A stretch of 64,000 bases of DNA, taken from assembly GCA_028554795.2 (NCBI GenBank), contig CM068825.1:94412451-94476450 (forward strand), in the 5' to 3' direction. The stretch is from Sinohyriopsis cumingii (taxonomy: Eukaryota; Mollusca; Bivalvia; Unionida; Unionidae). A program made the translations under genes and the position numbers. Positions 9,062 to 63,732 of this stretch are shown one piece after another. Each line of letters begins with the position of its first letter. Within the stretch, counting starts at the first letter, position 1. The notes under the pieces were generated by a model. It was not told the DNA's origin, ran no database searches, and was given only the letters and a program-made list of their open reading frames with translations.

Positions 9062-9073
9062 GTTTTAGGACCC

Positions 9074-9973
9074 ATGACAGTCGTAACAGCCTCTGTTTTA
9101 CCAGTTGAGGGCATTCATTCATTACTAGGCAGTGACCTAGCTGGAGATAAGGTTGTGGTTAATCCACTTGTAACTGACAAGCCTTGCTTGGATCAGAAAG
9201 TTGATCCTGTTGAAAAAGAATTCCCTGATTTATACCCAGATTGTGCAGTTACTAGAGCTGTGGCAAAGAAAACTCTTATGAATGATGTTGATCAGGAAAG
9301 TATTCCTTTAGCTGACACATGTATTGATCAGGCTTTTGATGAGGTCACTTTCACACCTTGTTTGGATCAATCAAAAGGTATTGATCACAGTGATCCTCTT
9401 TTAATTACTCATTCTCTTTATTCTAATCATGGTGACAGAGAACAATCACTTGTCATCGCACAGGAGAAAGATCATGAGATCTCCTGTTTGTTTCAAAGGG
9501 CCATTAGTAAAACTGAAGCTGCTGAAGTACCTGTTTGTTATTTCATTAAAAATGGAATTCTTATGAGAAAATGGAGACCTTCTGAGGTACCTGCTGGTGA
9601 TGAGTGGTCAGTGAATTATCAAATTGTAGTTCCAAAATCTTACAGACATGAAATACCTAGTCTGGCCCATGAAACTCCTTTGGCTGGTCATTTAGGGATT
9701 AATAAGACTTATCACAAGATCTTGACTCACTTTTATTGGCCAAAAATCAAAAGTGATGTTTGTAAATACTGCAGATCTTGTCAAACTTGTCAAATGGTAG
9801 GAAAACCCAATCAGAAGATACCTAACACTCATCTGCAACCTATTCCTGCATTTGACAAACCATTTAGCAGAAATATGGTAGATTGTGTTGGTCCCTTACC
9901 TAAGACCAAGTCAGGTAACCAATGCTTATTGTCCATAAAGGTTCCCAGTGGCAGTTCCTTTGAGGAATATTAA
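9074..9973 (+). pseudogene. Retroelement integrase N-terminal part (HHCC zinc finger)
   Basis: A 299-residue open frame. Residues 1-30 continue the protease-like text (LLGSDLAGDKVV). From about residue 165 it reads as an integrase: CYFIKNGILMRKWRP, then the HHCC zinc-binding domain HETPLAGH ... CRSCQTCQ at about residues 198-240, then PFSRNMVDCVGPLPKTKSGN, which starts the integrase core and includes its first acidic residue. The frame breaks near residue 295, and the rest of the core is missing before the reverse transcriptase begins at 10442. The striking point is position: integrase lies upstream of reverse transcriptase, as in Gmr1-type Ty3/gypsy elements. Confidence 0.88.
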
Positions 9974-10106
9974 ATCTAAAACAATAGTAAAAAGATTAGG
10001 TATTATGACCCTTACAAAGAAGAAAATTAGTTCAATTAAAATGATAATACTCCTGGGATCTAAATAAATTAAAGTAGTACCAGTATGTTGAGAGACAGCC
10101 AGGTTA

Positions 10107-10367
10107 TTGTTATTGTTGTTGTTGTTGTGGGGTTTAATGTCGTTTTTCAGCACACGATAGGCTATATATGGCGGCCAGTATTAATGGTGGAGGAAGAACC
10201 CGGGAAAAACCCCGGAAAGAACCACCGACCCACGAGAAGCTACTGGCATGCTTTCTCACATACCTACATTGGCTGAATCTGAGACTCGAACTGGCGCAGA
10301 CAGAGGTGAGATGGCAGTGATCTGTAACAGAGAACGCTTTAGACCACTCGGCCACTTGGGAACCCCC
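10107..10367 (-). repeat. SINE family A inserted in the retroelement
   Basis: A - strand copy of SINE-A. Read in reverse it starts at the tRNA-like head (TGGCCGAGTGGTCTAAAGCG, CAGTTCGAGTCTCA) and ends in a CAACAACAATAACAATAA-type tail. It is flanked by a perfect 13-bp duplication GACAGCCAGGTTA at 10094-10106 and 10368-10380. It lies in the gap between the integrase and reverse-transcriptase remnants, so it is younger than the retroelement. Confidence 0.95.
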
Positions 10368-10441
10368 GACAGCCAGGTTAAACATGCAATTAATTCAATT
10401 GTACCTGCCCGACTCAGTAAGATTTAAGTGAAGGAATACCA

Positions 10442-11238
10442 TTGGACTATACTGATTTTGGAGCAACAAATCTTCAGAATTCAGAAAATATGAAAGATCT
10501 GGACCAGAAACTTTCACATTTGCAACAACAAGAAAGGAATGAACTTAAACAGTTATTATTTGCATATGAGCACTTATTTCCAGATGTTCCTACAAGAACA
10601 AAGAAAGTTTTCCATGATGTTGAAATTGTAAATTTCGAACCTGTGAAACAACACCCGTACAGGATGAACCCTCTCAAACTGAAATACTTGAAAAAAGAAA
10701 TTCAGTATTAATGCTGGAGAATGATTTCATTGAGCCCAGTAAAAGTGACTGGAGTTCACCGCATATACTTGTTCTGAAACCAGATAAAACTTTCCAAATG
10801 TGCACTGATTATAGGAAGGTGAATAGTGTGACAAAAACAGATTCATTCCCATTACCAAGAATTAACGACTTTATTGATAAGATCGGGAATGCCAAGTATG
10901 TCACCAAATTTGACCTTCTGAAGGGATTTTGGCAGATTCCACTAACAGAAAGAGAAAAGGGAATTTTGGCATTCGTGACTCCAGATGGACTTTATCAATA
11001 TAAAATGATGCTGTTTGGGCTGAAGGGTTTGCCAAGTACTTTTAAACATTTAATGAATATGATCACCTCTGGTCCAGACAATTGTGATGCTTACATTGAT
11101 GATGTCATCATGTACAGTGACACCTGGAAGGAACATTTAGCAACAATTTGGAAATTCTTTAACAGACTCACAGATGCAAGTTTGACAATTAATTTATCCA
11201 AAAGTGAGTTCTGCCATGCTAGAGTAACATTTCTATGA
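10442..11238 (+). pseudogene. Retroelement reverse transcriptase (Ty3/gypsy type)
   Basis: Two frames that were once one, split by a frameshift and stop at about 10709. The first (10442-10711) carries the lead-in DVEIVNFEPVKQHPYRMNP. The second (10711-11238, 175 residues) carries WSSPHILVLKPD, CTDYRKVN, YVTKFDLLKGFWQIPL, FGLKGLPSTFKHLM and the catalytic YIDD motif near residue 129. This matches Ty3/gypsy RT blocks. A stop follows ARVTFL, and the connection domain continues beyond it with stops. The element copy is dead. Confidence 0.93.
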
Positions 11239-13297: not shown

Positions 13298-13387
13298 CTT
13301 GGAGCAGGTGAACAATTTGAGGGAAATCCAAGCCATGAGGAGACTTAGCCCACATGCCAATGTAATTGATCTACAGGAGATCATCTT
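13298..13387 (+). CDS. MOK: MOK kinase exon: helix C region
   Basis: This is an internal exon of the MAPK-superfamily serine/threonine kinase MOK. It is preceded by TTTCAG and followed by GTGAGT. The first base completes a codon from a missing upstream exon; 29 codons follow, then two bases (TT) of a split codon. The peptide LEQVNNLREIQAM is the helix-C signature of the MOK/MAK/ICK group, and the glutamate of LREIQ is the one that pairs with the ATP-binding lysine. It continues as RRLSPHANVIDLQEII. Exon length (90 nt) and phases fit the next exon at 37102, whose first base completes a Phe codon. The exon with the glycine loop and lysine should lie upstream but I could not find it. A retroelement LTR ends 32 nt before this exon. 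Confidence 0.93.
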
Positions 13388-14559: not shown

Positions 14560-16606
14560 CAGTTCAAGAGCAGTCAGTCTGGTTTCCTAATAACTCGTAT
14601 CTTGCTTCTATACTCATAGTGGTAAATTTAATAACTGGTATAGCAGTGTTAGGGACCAGCTTCACACTGCTAAAAGAGACCACAGGAAAGCTGAGAGGCT
14701 TTGGCTTTCCACCAGACTCACTATTCATAAGCAAATCTATGAAGCCGATAAGAAGAATGTCACAAATATAGTCCATGCAGCGAAATCAGCCCACTACACT
14801 ACTAAGATCATGGAAAGTTCCAGCTGCAAAGAGCTCTTCGAGATTATTAACAAGCTAATGTCAAGGAACCTGTCTCTATGGATTTCGTACATACAATCCT
14901 GATGAAGAGTGCACCAAAGGCATGTGAACTTGATCCAATTCCAACATCACTGCTGCTTGAGTGCTTAGATCCAGTATTGCCTTCATTAACTGATGTTATT
15001 AATACCTCTCTCTCTCATCCGGGGAATTCCCATCATTTTTCAAAACTGCCATTGTAAAGCCTCTGCTGAAGAAACCAACACTAGACCATAACGATTTAAA
15101 GAACTACCACCCAGTTTCTAATCTCCCATTCATATCAAAAATCTTAGAAAAGGTTGTCTATCCCAGCTTGTATCTCATCTAAATTCAAACAGTCTTTTTA
15201 GCAATGTACAATCTGCATATCGCCCTTGCCACAGTACTGAAACTACTCTTCTAAAAGTAGTTAATGACATTCTCTCTGCGTTGGATAGCGGAAAGATTAC
15301 AGTCCTCACCCTCCTTGATTTATCTGCAGCATTTGACACAATAGACCATAATATATTACTTCACCATCTCCAGCATGTATTTGGCATACAGCCTTACTGT
15401 GGTTCAAGTCCTACTTGGTCAACAGGACACAAATTGTGTCTGCAAATCGAATACACTCAAGCCCAGTTGATCTATGTTGTGGTGTTCCACAGGGGTCTGT
15501 TCTTGGACTTGTTCTCTTCATTCTATACACTCAGCCGCTCTCAAGTGTCATAGATCATCATCCAGTGTCGCACCAATTGTACGCTGATGACACCCAAATA
15601 TACAAATCTAGCCACCCAACTGAAGTTGATGCTACCATCCAAGGAGTAGAGAGGTGCATTTCTGATGTGAAATCATGGATGACATGTAACAAGCTGCAGA
15701 TGAATGATGATAAAACTGATGCCATTCTGATCACAACACAAGGACTTTCTCATTCACATACTTTACCTCAAACAATAAATATCAGCAACACCAACATTAA
15801 ATTCACACAATCAGTATGAAACCTAGGTATTAATCTGGACAGTACTCTCACATTGCACCAACATGTCATGAACATATGCAAGGCTGAATATCTTGAGCTG
15901 AGACGCATCAGCTCAATTTGCAAATATCTTTCAGTTGATGCCACTAAAACACTTGCGTGTTCATCAGTACTTTCAAGACTGGACTATTGTAACTCAGTTC
16001 TGTCTGGTTCATCTCAATATCTGCTCCAGAAACTTCAAAAAGTTCAAAACACAGCCGCTCAGATCATACTTAGAGTACCACAATCAGAGGACACCTCCCC
16101 GCTGCTCTGTACCCTACACTGGTTATCCATTTGATCCAGAATCAAACACAAAATTTGTTCTCTGTGCTGCGCTTCACTGTCAGACTCTAGTCCAACATAC
16201 CTATCCGACCTCACCCATGTGTACACACCAGCAAGATACTTACGCTCCTCTTTTGACAATCGTATACTCATTATTCCCACTATGAAAACAAAGTCATACG
16301 GACAGCGTTCTTTTGCATACCAGGGCCCAGGAACTTGGAATGAATTGCCCACTGAACTTAGACACAAAGACACAGTGATCACATTCAAGAGGGCTCTCAA
16401 AACTCACTTATTTCGACTTCAAGAACAAACTTAAAGACCTAATAATGTTTCCTACCTTAAATATTCTCAGCATGTTTTTTTAATGTTTTCTAATTTCATG
16501 GTGTTTGTTTTTGTAATCAAATCATTATATGTTTTTTATCTTATAGGTGTTGTCTAATGTTGTAAAGCGCTTAGAGCTTCTAAAGATTAGGCGCTATACA
16601 AAGTCG

Positions 16607-37101: not shown

Positions 37102-37172
37102 TGACAAAAAGTCAGGATGTCTTATGCTAATTCTGGAGTTGATGGATATGAACATTTATGAATTAATAAGAG
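37102..37172 (+). CDS. MOK: MOK kinase exon: hinge region
   Basis: This 71-nt exon lies between a T-rich tract ending CAG and the donor GTAAGA. Its first base completes the Phe codon begun at 13386-13387. The peptide then reads DKKSGCLMLILELMDMNIYE followed by LIR, and one base (G) is left for the next codon. This is the kinase strand 4-5/hinge segment; the ELMDMNIYELI string is typical of MOK and related MAK/ICK kinases. The hinge sets the ATP adenine pocket. The exon is separated from the previous one by a 23.7-kb intron. A 36-bp satellite array begins 30 nt after its donor site. The leftover G requires a following exon that starts with two bases of a codon; both candidates at 48863 and 52348 do so and both restore Gly. 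Confidence 0.94.
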
Positions 37173-37202: not shown

Positions 37203-39062
37203 AATTAGAAATCTGAAACACTTTGCATAAATAGCATGATTTAGAAATCTAAAACAACCTTGCATATATTGCATGATTAGTGATCTAAAACAACCTTGCA
37301 TATATTGCATGATTAGAGATCTAAAACAACCTTGCAGATATTGCATGATTAGAGATCTAAAACAATCTTGCATATATTGCATGATTAGAGATCTTAAACA
37401 ATCTTGCATATATTGCATGATTAGAGATCTGAAACAACCTTGCATATATTGCATGATTAGAGATCTAAAACAATCTTGCATATATTGCATGATTAGAGAT
37501 CTAATACAACCTTGCATATATTGCATGATTAGAGATCTAAAACAATCTTGCATATATTGTATGATTAGAGATCTAATACAACCTTGCATATATTGCATGA
37601 TTAGAGATCTAAAACAATCTTGCATATATTGTATGATTAGAGATCTAATACAACCTTGCATATATTGCATGATTAGAGATCTAAAACAACCTTGCAAATA
37701 TTGTATGATTAGAGCTCTAAAACACTCTTGCATATATTGTATGATTAGAGATCTAATACAATCTTGTATATATTGCATGATTAGAACTCTAAAACAACCT
37801 TGCTTATATTGCATGATTAGAGATCTAAAACAATCTTGCATATATTGCATGATTAGAGATCTAATACAACCTTGCATATATTGCATGATTAGAGATCTAA
37901 AACAATCTTGCATATATTTCATGATTAGAGATCTAATACAACCTTGCATATATTGCATGATTAGTGATCTAAAACAATCTTGCATACATTGTATGATTAG
38001 AGATCTAATACAACCTTGCATATATTGCATGATTAGAGATCTAAAACAACCTTGCAAATATTGTATGATTAGAGATCTAAAACACTCTTGCATATATTGT
38101 ATGATTAGAGATCTAATACAATTTTGCATATATTGCATGATTAGAACTCTAAAACAACATTGCATATATTGAATGATTTGAGATCTAAAACAATCTTGCA
38201 TGTATTGCATAATTTGAGATCTAATACAACCTTGCATATGTTGCATGATTAGAGATCTAAAACAACTTTGCATATATTGCATGATTAGAGATCTAAAACA
38301 ACTTTGCATATATTGCATGATTAGAAATCTGAAACAACTTCGCATATATTGCATGATTAGTGATCTAAAACAACCTTGCAAATATTGTATGATTAGAGAT
38401 CTAAAACAATCTTGCATACATTGTATGATTAGAGATCTAATACAATCTTACATATATTGCATGATTAGAACTCTAAAACAACATTGCATAAATTGCATGA
38501 TTAGAAATCTAAAACAACCTTGCATATATTGCATGATTAGAAATCTGAAACAACCTTGCATATATTGCATGATTAGTGATCTAAAACGACCTTGCATATA
38601 TTGCATGAATAGAGATCTAATACAACCTTGCATATATTGTATGATTAGAAATCTTAAACAACTTTGCATATAGAGATCTAATACAACCTTGCATATATTG
38701 CGTGATTAAAGATCTAATACAATCTTGCATATATTTCATAATAGAGATCTAATACAGCCTTGCATATATTGCCTGATTAGAGATCTAATACAGCCTTCCA
38801 TATATTGCATGATTAGAGATCTAAAAGAACTTTGCATATATTACATGATTAGAGATCTAAAACAACCTTGCATATATTGCATGATTAGAGATCTAATACA
38901 GTCTTGCAATATTGCATAATAGAGATCTAATACAGCCTTGCATATATTGCATGATTAGTGATCTAAAACAACCTTGCATTTATTGCATGATAGAGATCTA
39001 AAACAATTTTGGATATATTGCATAATTCAAAATCTTAAATGACTTTGCATATATTTAAGAAT
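37203..39062. repeat. 36-bp tandem satellite with higher-order structure
   Basis: About 50 units of 36 bp, each built on GATTAGAGATCTAAAACAA followed by CCTTGCATATATTGCAT. Most units keep the palindrome AGATCT. Two variants (CTAAAACAATC and CTAATACAACC) often alternate, making 72-bp dimers. A distinctive set of variants recurs at 37681, 38041 and 38365, giving larger periods of 360 bp and 324 bp (10 and 9 units). Because 36 is a multiple of three, long ORFs exist on both strands (411 codons on -, 299 on +) with 12-residue repeats; I read these as a by-product. The array starts 30 nt after the splice donor of the 37102 exon. Confidence 0.97.
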
Positions 39063-48862: not shown

Positions 48863-48941
48863 GAAAGAGACATTATCTTCCTGAGCGAAAAGTGAAAAAT
48901 TACATGTATCAACTGTTGAAATCAGTTGAGCACATGCATAG
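48863..48941 (+). CDS. MOK: MOK kinase exon, version a (helix D-E), candidate mutually exclusive
   Basis: This 79-nt exon has acceptor TTTTGTAG and donor GTAAGA. It completes Gly with the preceding exon, then encodes KRHYLPERKVKNYMYQLLKS and VEHMH, and leaves AG to be completed as Arg by the exon at 54221. This is the segment running into helix E of the kinase C-lobe, just before the catalytic loop. The first part (KR..., ERKVK) resembles the usual MOK sequence in this region. A second exon of the same length, phase and motif layout lies 3.4 kb downstream at 52348; 17 of 26 complete residues (Gly to the last His) are identical. Because 79 is not a multiple of three, including both exons or neither would shift the reading frame, so one or the other is expected in a working mRNA. 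Confidence 0.9.
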
Positions 48942-49420
48942 GTAAGATTTGTCCTATGCACTCGACACAAAACTCTTCATCATGGCACAAGGTAGAGAAG
49001 AGCTATTTTCTTTGCATGTTTAGACTTAATCTAGAACGAAGCACCATATTTAAATATCCAGTTCACAAAGTCAAGCTGATAGTTGCTGATGTTTGATATC
49101 TAGAATGTGGTCCTGAGGTAAATGTCTTCCTCACAACCAGTTCCTCAAAGGCAGCTTTAATAAATTTGGACATGAGGGAGGTTGGAAAAATAAGAATTTA
49201 AAGGTTGAAAATTTAGTTCATTTATATACTTACTTTTTCAAATTGTGGAGTTAAAAGATTTATGAAATATATATTCTTCATTGGGTTTATCAATACTGAA
49301 TTTACTGTTTATTACCTACATGTTTTTTGAATAAGTGGGAATCACCTTATCCTGCTTGTATATACATGCTATGTGTACATGTGTGCATGCATATTGTGTA
49401 CATATCACACAAGAGATTTT

Positions 49421-49524
49421 AAACTTTGCAATATGATTGTGCTCTACTCCCATGATTCAGTACTAGGGTGGGAAACTTTGCAATATGATTGTGCTCCACT
49501 CCCATGATTCAGAGCTGGGGTGGG
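49421..49524. repeat. Tandem duplication, 52 bp x 2
   Basis: AAACTTTGCAATATGATTGT begins at 49421 and again at 49473, and the following text CTACTCCCATGATTCAG / CCACTCCCATGATTCAG repeats with few changes. Confidence 0.93.
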
Positions 49525-50179
49525 ACACATCTCTTTAACTGTTTCATATCGAGACTTCCAAATTTGAGATAATGATTGGGATGGTGCACAGATGTTCACA
49601 TTGGTTTTGGAATTTTGAACCACTCTCACATTGTGGAGTTGGGATTGGAGATACATTCATAAATGTGTTAATACGGGTGAGTCTGATAGCTGAGAAAAGC
49701 ATAAGGAATAGTGCTGCTTTGCTGTTGACATGTGTAGTAGTTTCAGTTATTCATTCATGATCTTTAGCATCTCTAATGAGATCAATATATTTAATGTTTC
49801 TTTAGCCTTTGAGGTACTGTCTTGTCCATGTTTATTGTTGAAACATGCATGTGACTTTTTTTCTCATTTAAGCTTTTATTTAGCCTTATTATACTGATAA
49901 TTGTTCAAGTTTGGATATTTTTAAATTCAAAATTGATATTACAATAAATCAATATGTGTGTAATTATCTCCATTATAAGGACAAACTATCTCACTGCCCA
50001 CACAAATCTGTCACAGGCATGTTGCAGATGTTTGCTTGAGTAACTGCATCTCTTTTTGCATTATAATTTAGTTCACACATACAGTCATTAATTTCTTCAT
50101 GCCTTTCAGTTGTAATTAGCTTTTGTCAAGTAAGATTGAATACAAAATATCCTTCATGTTCTTATTACAATTTTGCAAA

Positions 50180-51540
50180 AAATTTGTACTTAAAGAATCA
50201 TCTACTCCAAACATGTTTGGCAATATCAACATGGGATTTTCACTAAATGACTTATACTGTCTAGCTGGTCCTAAGCGATAATGGTGCCATTCTCATGTCC
50301 AGTAGGGCCAAAATGTAAATCGACTTGAAAATCTTGTTATTGCTACTCCACCTGAGTGGTAAGTCATATTGACTTGGGGTTTTCATCAGAAGACTTCATA
50401 TGTATAGTTGGTTCTAAAAATTGTGCGAGTCTGATATCCAATTAGGTCACTGTGGCAGCCATCTTGAAAATCTTATTGCTCTTCCTCTGAAATGGAAGGT
50501 CAAACTGACATGGGATTTTCACCCAAAAAACAATTTCTGATGTCTAGTTGATCATAAACAAAAATAGTGCCACTCTTACATCAAATATGGCCAACACAGT
50601 GGCCCTATTGAAATTCATGTTATTGCTACTCCTTCTTAATGGATGGTCATATTAACATGGGGTTGTTATTGCTACTCCTTCTTAATGGATGGTCATATTA
50701 ACATGGGGTTGTTATTGCTACTCCTTCTTAATGGATGGTCATATTAACATGGGGTTGTTATTTCTACTCCGTCTTAATGGATGGTCATAATAACATGGGG
50801 TTGTTATTGCTACTCCTTCTTAATGGATGGTCATATTAACATGTGGTTGTTATTGCTACTCCTTCTTAATGGATGGTCATATTAACATGGGATTGTTATT
50901 TCTACTCCTTCTTAATGGATGGTCATATTAACGTGGGGTTGTTATTGCTACTCCTTCTTAATCAGATGGTCATATTAACATGAGGTTGTTATTGCTACTC
51001 CTTCTTAATGGATGGTCATATTAACATGGGGTTGTTATTTCTACTCCTTCTTAATGGATGGTCATAACATAAACATGTTGTTTTCACCAGAAGGCTTCTT
51101 GTGATGTCTGGTTGGTCCAAAGAAAAATATGGTGCTAATATGACACCTAATATGGCCGCCATGGCAGTCATCTTGAAAATCTTGTTATTGCTACTCCTTT
51201 AACATAACCACTATAGTGACCATCTTAAAACTCTTGCTATATTGATGCACATCCAAGATAGATGGCCATATCAGCATGGGGTTTTAACCCCAATGACTTC
51301 TTGTGATATCTCGTTGGACCTAAATGAAAATGGTGCTGATCTGATGTCCATTATGGCCACCATGGCAGATGTTTTGAAAATCTTGTTATTACTGTTCCTC
51401 CTTGGTGGAAAGACTTATTGACATGAGGTTTTGACCAGAAAATTGATTTGGATGTTTAGTTTGTTTTAAATTCTGATCCGATCTTCAATAAGGCCATCAT
51501 GGTGGTCATTTTGAAAATCTGGTTAGTACTACTCGTGATT
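50180..51540 (+). repeat. Second locus of the ~145-bp repeat family
   Basis: Units carry the same words as the array at 20780-26130: CTTGAAAATCTTGTTATTGC, GGGTTTTCAC-AGAAGACTTC, GTCTAGTTGGTC and AATATGGCC-CC. It sits in the intron between the two alternative MOK exons and includes a 46-bp minisatellite. Confidence 0.85.
50615..51070 (+). repeat. 46-bp minisatellite, about 10 units
   Basis: The unit TTATTGCTACTCCTTCTTAA followed by TGGATGGTCATATTAACATGGGG repeats about ten times with period 46 (for example 50621 and 50667). The unit is itself a sub-segment of the ~145-bp repeat, so the minisatellite grew by local amplification inside one repeat unit. Confidence 0.95.
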
Positions 51541-52347
51541 TATCAAAGCTGTTATGGATAGGGGGTGTAACTGACAGAGTGCTTACCTTGAGACTCTGTT
51601 ATTGCTCAGAATTATCAGAGATGACTTGTTAAAAATAAGAAATGGTCTTATTCTGAATTCTTGGAAATTATTTTTGGCCTGTAGAACATCAGTCCCTTGC
51701 AAGGGACTCTTGATATAATTTAGGTGACAGGGTTTTAATTTTACCATATTATACCTAGAAGATGTTGTAATCAAAGATATTGTAAGAAGGTAGAGCTGTA
51801 CTTGTTTTACCAGTTGAATAGCTTGTTTATGTATTAAAAATGATTACATGTACTAAAAGGTCTATAAAAATTAAAGACTGTATAGTAATGCACTGTAGAA
51901 ATTACTGGCAGGTACATATCATATAAAATCCCATACTTGAAGAATAGTCATGAAGCAATAAAAATATTTTGTAAATTTTGTAATATATTTTTTTTAAATA
52001 TCATAAATTATGAACATTGTATTACTGATCTGTGATTGCGTTCTGCATGTATAATTGACACATTACATTCAAAAGTTATAAAAAGCTAATTTTTAAAAAA
52101 TATGTGAATTAAACACATTTTCACAGTATCTTCATTTCTTATTTTTTGCATAAAATAAAAAGGTTGCCAGAAATAAAGTTTGATTGAATTTTCTGGTCTA
52201 TGATGTTTAATTAACAAGTAATGTTTGATATATACCTGCTATCATCTTAATTTGTAGTTAATCTGCCACTGTTTAGTAGTTTTATTACACTGTAGTTTGA
52301 TCTGTGTATTGAATACTACATATTTACTGCTCCATTTTCCCTTCCAG
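51541..52347. other. Intronic DNA before exon version b, nothing recognised
   Basis: AT-rich DNA with no gene recognised, ending in a pyrimidine-rich tract and the CCAG acceptor of the 52348 exon. Confidence 0.55.
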
Positions 52348-52426
52348 GATTGACTCACTACTTACCTGAATTCACTGTCAGAAAATATATGTATCAACTT
52401 TGCAAATCTGTAGATTACATGCATAG
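52348..52426 (+). CDS. MOK: MOK kinase exon, version b (helix D-E), candidate mutually exclusive
   Basis: This second copy of the 79-nt exon has acceptor CTTCCAG and donor GTAAGC. It starts and ends in the same phase as version a: it completes Gly, encodes LTHYLPEFTVRKYMYQLCKS and VDYMH, and leaves AG for the Arg codon finished at 54221. The reading frame is open, the splice sites are intact, and changes cluster in the first half (KR to LT, RK to FT) while the helix-E core YMYQL-KSV is kept. That is what an alternative exon under constraint would look like, rather than a dead duplicate. The surface it changes lies before helix E, so it may alter partner or substrate contacts rather than catalysis; that part is inference. 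A decayed extra exon is the alternative, but the open frame argues against it. Confidence 0.85.
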
Positions 52427-54220: not shown

Positions 54221-54269
54221 AAATGGCATCTTTCACCGGGATGTAAAACCAGAGAACATATTAATTAAG
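54221..54269 (+). CDS. MOK: MOK kinase exon: catalytic loop
   Basis: This 49-nt exon follows a pyrimidine-rich tract ending TTTTTGTAG and is followed by GTGGGT. The first A completes the Arg codon left by either version of the preceding exon. The 16 codons that follow read NGIFHRDVKPENILIK, the catalytic loop: HRD supplies the catalytic Asp, the Lys two residues later contacts phosphate, and the Asn of PEN binds magnesium. All key residues are present, so the gene is not an obvious pseudogene. The exon ends on a codon border and joins in frame to 55577. Confidence 0.96.
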
Positions 54270-55576: not shown

Positions 55577-55662
55577 GAAGAAGTATTGAAGTTAGCAGAT
55601 TTTGGTTCTTGTAGAAGTGTGTATTCAAAGCAGCCATACACAGAATACATATCCACAAGATG
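55577..55662 (+). CDS. MOK: MOK kinase exon: DFG and TEY activation segment
   Basis: This 86-nt exon has acceptor TTTTTATAG and donor GTGAGT. Starting on a codon border it reads EEVLKLADFGSCRSVYSKQP then YTEYISTR, and ends with TG of a split Trp codon. DFG supplies the magnesium-binding Asp. The TEY motif is the MAPK-type activation-loop site phosphorylated on Thr and Tyr, and MOK carries it in other animals. The following exon should begin by completing Trp and continue with the APE motif; I searched by eye to the window end and did not see it, so the 3' part of the gene probably lies beyond 64000, or the intron sequence hides a diverged exon. Both metal-binding motifs are intact, supporting a functional kinase. 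Confidence 0.96.
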
Positions 55663-59239: not shown

Positions 59240-62200
59240 GTCTTTTTTTATGTGGAAGCTATGAAAACCACTCTAGTATCACAAGAGGCAAACATTGTGT
59301 TGGCAAAGTGTAGCTGCTTACCGGATGGCTTAGCAAACTTTAAACATTGTTAGATCGAGTGATACATGCATGAAATGGATATGAAAATTACTGATTGTCT
59401 CAGAAATTGTATTAAAATCGGAGTTGATGAAATGTGACTGGGTACTCGCGATTTGCATTGCTAGTCACATGAGTACACAAATCTAGCAACCCATATTTTT
59501 AAATGTTATAGAGAAAAAATTAGAAAATATTAAATGAAAGTCATATACGGGTTGTAATCAAAATACAAAAATGAAAGAAAAAGTATCTTTAAATGGTCAA
59601 CTTTCTGAAAGTAAAAATATTAATTGTGGAGTACCACAAGGCTCTATCCTTGGACCTTTGTTATTCATTCTGTTTATCAATGATTTACTTCTTAAGATTG
59701 TAACTTTAATTTCTTCCACTGACCTCTATCCAGATGATACTACCCTGTCTGAGATTGGTAAAACCAAAATGGTACTTGAAAATAACTTACAAGATGTTCT
59801 CAACAGACTTCAAGTATGGTGCAAGGAAAACAGTATGATCATAAATACAGAAAAAAACGAAAGCCCTGCTATTTACAATGCAACAAAAATGAGTAAGCCT
59901 AGATAGTGACAAACTCCAGGTTCTATTTGACAATGTGGGCCTCAATATGACCTCTTAAGATAGAGATTCTTGGTGTATTCATGAATAACAATCTTACTTG
60001 GTCTATTCACATTAAACATATTTCAAAAAAGGTTAATTCTTATCTTTGGCTACTGAGGAAAATCAAAACATACATTCTTCTTCAGTATAGGGTCATCTTT
60101 TATAAAAGGTATGTTCAGCCATATCTGGACTACTGTAATGTAGCTTGGGGTAATACCTCTAATTCAAACACAACAACACTTTTAAGACTCCAAAAGAGGG
60201 CTTGCCATTTAATTCTAGATCAGAGTATAGAAAATTTTCAGGATGCAATAAATAATAGAAAGGTTTTAACAATACATGAAAGAATATTTCTTAGAAAGGC
60301 CAGATTGATATATAAAGTATCCAGAAAAGACATTCCTGTTTATCTAAGCAATATCTTTCACCAAAGAGATGCTGATGGTACTCCAAATTTAAGGTTCATA
60401 AGAAGAAAAAATTACATTATACCAAGGCCAAAGAAGGAATTGTTTAAAAAACGTTTTCAATATACTGGTCCACTGGTATGGAACAACATTCCCAATGACA
60501 TAAGGCAAGCTCCTAGCACTTCATCTTTTCACAATCAATGTCTTAAATGGATGAAATCTTTAGAAAATTGAACAGTTCTAGTACAAAAAATACCACCTGC
60601 TTTTCTGTAATTTGGCATCATTTTCATAGCTGAATGTTTCAGTGCAGGATAATATTTTATTTTTTATATATGTTTATGTTTTCATTGATGCCTGTGCATG
60701 TGTTCCAGGCTTGATTCTTTGGAATTTTAAAATTACTTAATTATTTAGTGTCGAGCCAGACTCTTCACATCATGTTGTATATACTGTATATATTGTACAT
60801 AGCAGATAGAAGGCCTCAAGGTAGATTAGTTATGTAACTAATTGAGTTACCTTCTCTAAATAAAGTCTTTATTGTTATTATTATTATTATTATAAAGAAC
60901 ACAAAGTTTTCCATAATTATATATTCCGAGAACAACTTCTGGAGTTTGTTGTATCACGGGACTACCACGTTGACTTGTGCTCTCTGCTTGATAAATAAGA
61001 CTAGCCAGATTGCTGGTTTTTACAAAATGTATCTGACTTTAATTTAATATAATTGAATTTCTCTACAACAGTATTAAAATGGAGTTTGTTGTTGATATGA
61101 CGTGACTAATGGACTTTGGATGTCATCGTTTGAGATTCGTGAAGTGACTGGTAATGCAAATGGCAAGTACCGGGTCAGGTTTCATCAATGCTGAAGTTTG
61201 ATGTAGTCTGTCAGCAGAATAAAGACATGACGAGAAAGTGAATCATTTTTCTATTGATTTCATACAGGGCTAAGTCGATATAATATAAGTTTAAATTTTC
61301 TAGGCCCACTGGTAAGCAACTACCATATGTTGCTACTGCACCACGGCGGCAAATTCCAAATTTTCTATATGCAAATGCAATGACCCCACATGCCAACCTA
61401 AATGTCCAAATATGAAAAAATGGGGTGGGAATATTTGGAGGAAACCCAGATTAGAAAACGGACTGCTATACATTTTAGCCCAAATTGCTGAATCTCAGAG
61501 CTGAAATGAGAAATTGTCGTCCCTTGTATTATATATTAAAAAACTCTTCTAGCCCCTGTATCAATACAGGTTTGGGGACAGGTTTAACGAATTACAAGAA
61601 GACAAGTTGATTTTACAGAAATTCAGTTCTTGTTTATACAACAGTATATAATTTTGAAGATCTTTTGTCAAAATTTAAATCAACCCTTTTTAAAATGTTT
61701 TTTAAATGATGGATTTTTAACCAGATCTTCTTAAGGATATTAGGGTGTTTGATAAATCTTGCTTGGGACTTTATTGGAAAAGATAAAGTCAGTGTTAAAC
61801 TCTGTTACAAGACAAGAATCTAATTATTTGCGTTTATTGTTTTTTATACTGTAATAGAAAATGTTTACTTTTTATAAGATGCATATATATATTGCTATAG
61901 AATTCTTTAGAATTAAAGGTTTGAAAGGAAACAAAACTAATGTCTCTGTTCATTATGTTGTTCCCACTTAGCAACATAATGCAGGTCAGCAAAATAAAGT
62001 TAGAATTTTTATTTTGTACATTGAAATGACTTTACATGCCAATTTAAAGGAATATAATCAAATTTGTTTCATGTGATACATTTTGTGGTTTTGTACATGA
62101 ACATCTTTTCCAGCTTAGATGTTTTGGAGAGTCTTGAAAGATAACCATCTTTAGATTTAGAAAATGCATGTTTTATAATCTAAAATTTTCTTTAATTCCA

Positions 62201-62276
62201 TTTAGTAATTTCATCCTGGAAAACCCCTGGAAATGACCTGGAAATTTATCTTTAGAAAAGCATGGGAAACATGCAA
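59240..62276 (+). repeat. Paralogous block, copy 2 (split by a LINE)
   Basis: This copy aligns in order with 27665-28095 and 31706-33195. It lacks the LTR-like element of copy 1 and instead carries a LINE at 59577-60893. Alignment stops at GAAAAGCATGGGAA, where the virus-like block begins. Confidence 0.85.
59577..60893 (+). pseudogene. 5'-truncated non-LTR retrotransposon (reverse transcriptase C-terminal half)
   Basis: The insert starts inside reverse transcriptase. A first frame (to 59906) has CGVPQGSILGPLLFILFIND and then YPDD where YADD is expected for the catalytic site. A second frame (59981-60571, 196 residues) has LDYCNVAWGNTS, LLRLQKRACHLILD and FQYTGPLVWNNIPNDIR, the conserved C-terminal region of many invertebrate LINEs. 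The 3' end is AATAAAGTC followed by (TTATTA)n. The pre-insertion site is seen in copy 1 of the block at about 28021, giving a short shared AAAGA at the junctions. Frame breaks and the Ala-to-Pro change indicate a dead copy. Confidence 0.9.
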
Positions 62277-63559
62277 GTAACATTGTTTTATCACTGAGTA
62301 TAACAGCGATTGCTCTGTACCCACCAGCGAGTAGTTGAGCTACACGAACTTGGAACTGTACATCAGCAACAGATTGCCTGAATAAATCTAAATGTTCCAA
62401 CGAAAAGTAATAGATTGGATATAATATTGTGAAATCTTACTGAGATATCTGCAAACCAGAATAAACAATCTGAAGACAACCCATAAATATCATCAACCGA
62501 TGATAAGCTCGTGTAACATGATTTTGATCAAAATTTAGCCAAACTTCTTCAGAAGGTTCTTGATGTCCATTTATCCTCAAAGCAACTTCACTAACCCCAA
62601 GCATGTCAAACACCATTGGATTTCTTTCCTGCAAATCTACTGTGGCATTTTCCTGTAATGCGATGAATATATGTCATGTCGATGATACTACCTGCTGTGA
62701 TACTATCTGCCATGTGAATAATGCAGCATTACTTTGAATGCTATCTGTATTCATTGTCAATCATGATTATGTTGATTTACAAGCTTGACCCATGAAAGAT
62801 AACAATTGTTGTTCTTCGTCGATCGATGGAGTCATTACTGGCATCCACAGTGAGTTTTGTTAGTACTACTTTACCTGCATCAGCTGTGTTAGGTCGCCAG
62901 ATTGCATCATTGTCAGTGGCTTTTCTGAGAAGTACCACATTGTGTTTATTACCAAATAGAACTTTTCTAACTTTTCTACAGAATCCAAATATATGTGATA
63001 GTGGAATCACACATGACAAATTTTCTTCATGATTTAACATTTGTCTGCATGCTGCAAATCATAAGCTGAAATCATCATTCATCGATGCAACTGTGTCCCC
63101 AGCTGCATTTAGTCTCATGTTGCTACTCTCAGGGTGATCGATGGTATCTTTCGCATACATCATTGACAGACCAGCAGACTTCGGGTAATCATTGGCATAT
63201 CTTACCAGATCCAGTACCATTGTGGCAACATCAACATTTTTGAGCCATGATTCAATATTTTTTTCATCAATCATGTATATGGCACTGTTAAATAATGCCA
63301 TAACACCATTGTTAACAAAACCAAATCGATCTAGAAGTCTGTATGCAGTATCATGTGCTTTCAAAAGTCTACCTTCTACTTCAATAAACACTTCAGCAGG
63401 TACAAAATATCTATTTGTATCTTGAACTTGTAATTCGATTTGTCCATGTGCATTAGGTACACATGTGTCATAAGAATAGTACTGGCAATCACGCACAGAT
63501 TCATCTTTGAGAACTGGCACACCCATGTCAAATGTGAGATCAGATACACAATTAAACAT
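62277..63559 (-). pseudogene. Virus-like protein remnant, possibly capsid-type (Polinton/adinto-like)
   Basis: On the - strand from 63559 a frame runs 166 codons, meets a TGA at 63059-63061, continues in the same frame to about 62777, then shifts frame and continues from about 62650 to the junction near 62277 with one more stop (TAA) at 62437-62439. Recognisable pieces in order are YFVPAEVFIEVEGRLL, IPLSHIFGFCRKV, DAIWRPNTADAGKVVLTKL, ALRINGHQEPSEEVW and SVADVQFQVRVAQ. From memory these resemble a protein family found in integrated DNA-virus-like elements of invertebrates, in which a double jelly-roll capsid role is likely. I hold the family match as moderate and the capsid role as tentative. 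The ancestral protein would be about 420-430 residues. Base use differs little from the surroundings. Confidence 0.55.
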
Positions 63560-63732
63560 TTTATTATAATTGCTGATGTCTAACAGGAAGACAACTAACT
63601 GTTATTAAACTTGCCATTATATTTTTTTTCTTTTCGTCACATGGATACACCAGCCAAATCTGCTAATTTTTTTATTTGCAGCTTGATTTATTTTGTTACT
63701 AACATTTGCAGGCATAACAATGTTAGTAGCTG

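Follow-up and report, generated by a model that had tools for sequence, protein, structure and literature searches.

The MOK kinase gene of the unionid bivalve Sinohyriopsis cumingii contains two adjacent 79-nt exons, A and B, that offer alternative versions of one segment of the kinase domain and that, judged from sequence, very probably form a real, mutually exclusive pair. We propose that the two are an old tandem duplicate within the gene of a ciliary kinase and would be spliced mutually exclusively, such that one gene would yield two kinases differing in the alphaD-alphaE loop and helix alphaE. Both exons lie in the 64,000-nt stretch of DNA that was analysed (the window), together with four further exons of the gene:

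13298..13387, + strand: MOK exon of the kinase N-lobe, located by tblastn with the Potamilus streckersoni protein P0024 (29/30 residues identical), LEQVNNLREIQAMRRLSPHANVIDLQEIIF
37102..37172, + strand: MOK exon upstream of the pair, hinge and helix alphaD, DKKSGCLMLILELMDMNIYELIR
48863..48941, + strand: alternative exon A, 79 nt, the apparently MOK-typical version, KRHYLPERKVKNYMYQLLKSVEHMHR
48942..52347, + strand: intron between A and B, 3406 nt, with ends gtaag...ccag and no U12-like donor
52348..52426, + strand: alternative exon B, 79 nt, the apparently derived version, LTHYLPEFTVRKYMYQLCKSVDYMHR
54221..54269, + strand: MOK exon downstream of the pair, catalytic loop HRD, NGIFHRDVKPENILIK
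55577..55662, + strand: MOK exon with DFG and the TEY activation loop, EEVLKLADFGSCRSVYSKQPYTEYISTR

Reading the sequence directly, we found that exons A and B each have an AG acceptor, a GTAAG donor and an open frame, and share a phase that is set by the exon at 37102-37172 and carried on by the exon at 54221-54269. An earlier note on this DNA had described two 79-nt exons of common phase with intact splice sites and peptides matching at 17 of 26 residues; its coordinates, lengths, AG/GT borders, open frames and residue count all proved right, and to them we add the start of the upstream exon (37102) and the end of the downstream exon (54269). Joined to either A or B, the exons at 13298-13387 and 37102-37172 upstream and those at 54221-54269 and 55577-55662 downstream form one uninterrupted reading frame. 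As the length of each alternative exon is 1 modulo 3 nt, inclusion of both or neither shifts the frame and leads to an early stop, just as the note had stated for the frame. Translation of the four possible mRNAs placed this stop six residues past the junction codon when both exons were present and seven residues past it when both were absent, while A alone or B alone continued to the HRD catalytic loop and then the activation loop. Exons for kinase residues before 13298 or after 55662 were not found within the window.

Translation of B with its flanks gave a segment identical at 94 of 94 residues to P0024, the MOK protein of another unionid, Potamilus streckersoni, which itself matches the protein kinase domain PF00069 at 2.7e-65. 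The named matches were mostly MAPK/MAK/MRK overlapping kinases, the rest being hypothetical or unnamed-product proteins and one ICK. The exon at 55577-55662 encodes TEYISTR, and we take a TEY activation loop to be typical of MOK. With this loop, and with a kinase domain nearest to MOK, the gene falls with the MOK kinases of the RCK family. In mouse, MOK is found in cilia and its knockdown lengthens them; in mouse cells it limits cilium length and travels with the intraflagellar transport machinery (PMC4171540, accessible portion).

Several other features were noted along the window. A 36-bp minisatellite of at least about 50 copies (87% matches) starts 32 nt past the exon at 37102-37172 and occupies 37204-39000, where our scan ended; the array may extend further. 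The intron between A and B holds a perfect 18-nt palindrome at 51691-51708 (AGTCCCTTGCAAGGGACT), above 60/60 shuffles and perhaps a transposon end. Retroelement remains lie at 9062-11238 (+), with an integrase zinc-binding ORF (PF17921) upstream of a reverse transcriptase ORF (PF00078). A reverse-transcriptase ORF fragment (PF00078) occurs at 15352-15819, and the adjacent ORFs from 14594 to 16434 resemble, by eye, the same element. At 59538-60571, ORF pieces resemble by eye the end of a LINE reverse transcriptase, and a 206-residue ORF there had no Pfam match. On the minus strand, four adjacent ORFs at 62173-63601 (180, 93, 78 and 87 aa) resemble fragments of a single broken gene; a Pfam search of the 180- and 78-aa ORFs gave no match.

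The likeness between A and B is more than chance. Scoring each of the 71 open AG-79nt-GT segments of the window (both strands, A and B included) against A and against B with BLOSUM62, we obtained 87 for B versus A and 1 for the runner-up. No convincing third copy of the exon was present in the 64-kb window, where the best other tblastn match (E 0.03) had internal stops. DNA similarity did not reach beyond the exon and the first 5 nt of its donor: when the 1.2-kb surroundings of A and B were compared by blastn, the best match spanned 50 nt at 82% (48897-48946) and stopped 5 nt into the donor. A recent duplication is ruled out by this confinement. Comparison of the 25 internal codons gave 7 identical, 9 synonymous and 9 nonsynonymous, with pN at 0.23 and pS at 0.81, the latter saturated and beyond correction. 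The pair thus appears to be old, with its protein under constraint.

Both types were also found within single gene models of other molluscs. The oyster Magallana gigas (P0001) and the pulmonate snail Biomphalaria glabrata (P0002) each combine an A-type and a B-type segment in one model, so that A and B occur in one gene, A before B, in three lineages including the unionid of the window. We read the presence of both segments in one predicted protein as a probable gene-prediction artefact, given that 28 residues part the segments in one model and that B is shortened in the other; these models attest the exons, not their splicing, and hold no evidence of exclusivity. The protein database is clustered at 90% identity, which usually merges two isoforms of one gene into one record; the second isoform is thereby hidden, and both types in one gene are visible directly in only these three lineages. 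A-type records came from Mytilus, scallops, Pinctada, Solemya, Dreissena, Littorina, Pomacea, Gigantopelta, Haliotis, Patella, Aplysia, Bradybaena and Biomphalaria (P0013), and B-type records from Potamilus, Mya, Mactra, Ruditapes, Magallana (P0069), Tegillarca, Nucella, Babylonia, Lymnaea, Elysia, Physella and Lottia. Three records derive from short contigs: P0004 (A-type, 303 aa) from at most 1380 bases, P0011 (A-type, 483 aa) from at most 2026 and P0081 (B-type, 461 aa) from at most 1670. For a gene of many exons, such lengths suggest spliced transcripts. The earlier note's reading of A and B as candidate mutually exclusive MOK exons is supported by the co-occurrence of both types in one gene and by their scatter over the molluscan tree; the pair seems to belong to molluscs more widely and not to be peculiar to this genome.

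This scatter can be seen on a tree from which the exon segment was cut out. It comprised 53 rows that we chose from 177 returned proteins: 34 typed rows (29 named molluscs and 5 unnamed; 21 A and 13 B), 3 untyped mollusc-like rows and 16 outgroups, with P0001 and P0002 left out as having both segments. Types were assigned by us from the exon sequence itself, so that differences inside the exon and clustering of types on an exon tree are built in, which does not hold for the exon-free tree. On the latter, type changed 11 times, at least 9 of these changes being forced by well-supported branches; shuffled labels gave a mean of 10.7 changes, and 363 of 500 shuffles were as low. The type displayed is thus unrelated to descent beyond chance, which would follow if most of these genes carry both exons and the database displays one. 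Across all 561 typed pairs, identity outside the exon was 85.3% for opposite types (273 pairs) and 85.5% for the same type (288 pairs); inside the exon it was 62% and 79%, a gap to which the assignment of types from the exon contributes. Outside/inside identities were 0.99/0.73 for Magallana and lgn1380, 0.96/0.58 for Littorina and Babylonia, and 0.94/0.38 for Patella and Lottia. In a stretch-by-stretch comparison of 8 of 10 chosen pairs, the exon ranked as the least similar stretch, alone or tied, in 7, the exception being Littorina-Nucella, in which the N-terminal stretch was more divergent than the exon.

Trees of the exon itself rest on 26 columns. Gastropod B and bivalve B formed separate groups in the exon tree; holding all 14 B rows together gave a log-likelihood 3.1 better than that of the free search. 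Holding A and B together cost 13.1 log-likelihood units within bivalves (AU p 0.20) and 6.0 within gastropods (AU p 0.29), and window A and window B held as sisters came out 4.9 lower (AU p 0.35); on these 26 columns the AU tests rejected neither independent duplications nor sister status of window A and B. The chiton Liolophura and the mollusc-like proteins P0157 and P0158 have B-like residues (TV, CKSVD). P0157 and P0158 are fast-evolving MOK proteins with a B-like exon, possibly from cephalopods; no named cephalopod record was among the matches listed. The pair probably dates back to the common ancestor of bivalves and gastropods, and perhaps to that of molluscs as a whole, a placement that the sequences favour but do not prove. 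They likewise favour a single origin of B in early molluscs, and suggest long retention of the pair in bivalves and snails. Bivalves and gastropods split more than 500 million years ago.

Three other accounts of these data have to be weighed against an old, functional pair. Were the A/B split ordinary divergence of a single fast-evolving exon in molluscs, the high variability of B-type segments (Lymnaea and Physella share only 42% within B) would be explained, but not the near-frozen state of A (9 identical rows, 7 of them from named bivalves) or the repeated type switches among close relatives; the presence of both versions in one gene in two other lineages and in the window itself contradicts this account, which we find scarcely credible. 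Very unlikely, though not to that degree, is that unionids splice only one of the two exons, the other being an idle or decaying copy. Such a pseudo-exon would fit P0024, the sole named unionid record found, whose gene model has B only and so leaves A without support from a second unionid. Both exons are nevertheless open and have good splice sites, and the two still agree at 16 of 25 internal residues despite saturated synonymous change. Window A is identical at 25 of 26 residues to the A of oyster (P0001), scallop, Mytilus and Pinctada, and window B at 26 of 26 to Potamilus P0024. Distinctly more plausible than either, but still the lesser possibility, is that this exon was duplicated in tandem independently in bivalves and gastropods (and elsewhere) and not in one ancestral event. 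The separate gastropod-B and bivalve-B groups of the exon tree and the AU tests leave room for it, and convergent tandem duplication has been reported in other genes (PMC9741552, part of the text). It has to contend, however, with the same exon, order and 26-residue length in both classes, with the absence of an otherwise invariant lysine from 12 of 14 B rows of both classes (T in 6, S in 2), with T at that position in the chiton record as well, and with a likelihood that favours one B clade.

If A and B are the mutually exclusive pair that we favour, their exclusivity is best explained as maintained mainly through the reading frame. A frameshift and immediate stop in mRNAs with both or neither exon were computed from the sequence; nonsense-mediated decay would then spare the A-only or B-only products, and such decay of wrong products would be sufficient for exclusivity. 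A dedicated device, whether U2/U12 incompatibility as in JNK or the competing intronic RNA pairing of Dscam-type clusters, we regard as unlikely. The three donors around the pair (gtaagagtat, gtaagatttg and gtaagctagc) all begin with gtaag and are U2-like, none being U12-type by the U12 donor consensus, which rules out incompatibility of the JNK type. Steric crowding operates only below a limiting intron length and is a poor fit with the 3406-nt middle intron. The longest exact complementarity among the last 2 kb before A (of an 11.7-kb upstream intron), the middle intron and the intron after B did not exceed that of 60 dinucleotide shuffles, in a scan of one genome that imperfect pairing would escape. 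Both kinds of device are nonetheless known for exon pairs (PMC8329584 and PMC6071210, in part). Human pairs are kept exclusive by frameshift and decay, by splice-site incompatibility or by branch-point proximity, according to the accessible portion of PMC5740500. Of the features by which that source defines mutually exclusive exons, those of exon anatomy are seen here: A and B are adjacent, similar in length, in the same frame and homologous in sequence. Its second demand, that no reads join both exons, excepts cases in which the frame shifts; joint inclusion of A and B shifts the frame and yields a stop, so the exception would apply. The source also asks for junction reads that lead from each exon past the other, and in this respect A and B are a candidate pair.

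By alignment to CDKL5 and the structure model of P0024, the exon maps to the alphaD-alphaE loop and helix alphaE, in the usual naming of kinase helices. The model, built with 22 aligned sequences, is of low confidence (mean pLDDT 48.7, pTM 0.43), and from it we used only helix 121-140 (block means 80 and 72). Exon positions 8, 9, 12 and 18 are diagnostic of A versus B across rows. At position 9, lysine occupies 24/24 A rows (14 distinct) and 16/16 outgroup rows, and 2/14 B rows; in sequence terms, A seems to retain the form typical of animal MOK, and B to be derived and more variable. In a gapless match by eye to the verified p38alpha segment, positions 8, 9 and 12 correspond to Asp125, His126 and Phe129. 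A study of p38 and MK2 assigns Ile116, Gln120, Leu122, His126, Phe129, Leu130, Val158 and Glu160 to the docking groove (PMC12751014, accessible part). At the sites of p38 Leu122 and Leu130, both types mostly retain leucine and an aromatic residue. Two of the four diagnostic positions fall within the p38-type groove (p 0.15, not significant), an overlap that is suggestive at most, the use of such a groove by MOK being itself putative.

The B differences lie where alphaE begins, and the matching positions of p38 border its groove. As the likeliest consequence we suggest tentatively, with rather less than even confidence, that the swap alters the partner or substrate choice of MOK and leaves catalysis intact. 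Somewhat more speculative is the full scenario, in which a switch more than 500 million years old, arising in the molluscan ancestor, would give most molluscs an A form with the general animal sequence and a B form whose MAPK-like docking groove had been rebuilt by changes at the Phe129 site of p38 and in the alphaE lysine at the His126 site, the two possibly serving different cilia or flagella, such as motile cilia of gill and larva versus sensory cilia or sperm.

RCK kinases control cilium length, and a wider question is what makes the cilia of one animal differ in it. If bivalves and gastropods have both kept a one-exon switch in the kinase core, nature would have supplied the experiment, with two proteins identical save for 26 residues that can be tested side by side. 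It would also add the alphaD-alphaE region to the known kinase-domain sites altered by splicing, and offer a case of long standing in which to study what preserves tandem exon pairs.

Among known systems, the exon 6a/6b pair of the JNK kinases, present in JNK3 as well, lies in the C-lobe after the activation loop, unlike the MOK exon with its alphaD-alphaE loop and alphaE. In JNK1/2 (MAPK8/9) this pair, like that of MOK, is a mutually exclusive alternative exon inside a MAP kinase; its use is tissue-specific, and the isoforms differ in substrate binding (PMC8699841, PMC8329584, portions of each). JNK exclusivity is attributed in the available text to interlocked U12 and U2 sites, whereas the MOK donors are U2-like. 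FYN (FynT/FynB) likewise has tandem duplicated, mutually exclusive exons reaching into the kinase domain (PMC9741552, in part), but is a tyrosine kinase in which they cover the SH2-kinase linker and the N-terminal kinase region with the ATP site. With JNK and FYN already described in these sources, a swapped kinase-core exon, which the earlier note called unusual, has precedents. Among bivalves, the oyster Crassostrea virginica has a duplicated, alternatively spliced exon in AOX (alternative oxidase), an unrelated enzyme (PMC5589949, partial text). The orthologous vertebrate kinase, MOK (RAGE-1), had a single version of the segment in the records returned, in which 90% clustering could hide another. 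Among the open-licence papers listed, titles and opening lines of abstracts made no mention of alternative exons of MOK in molluscs. Kinase-core swaps themselves are known; what is new here is the gene, the position in the kinase and the apparent age.
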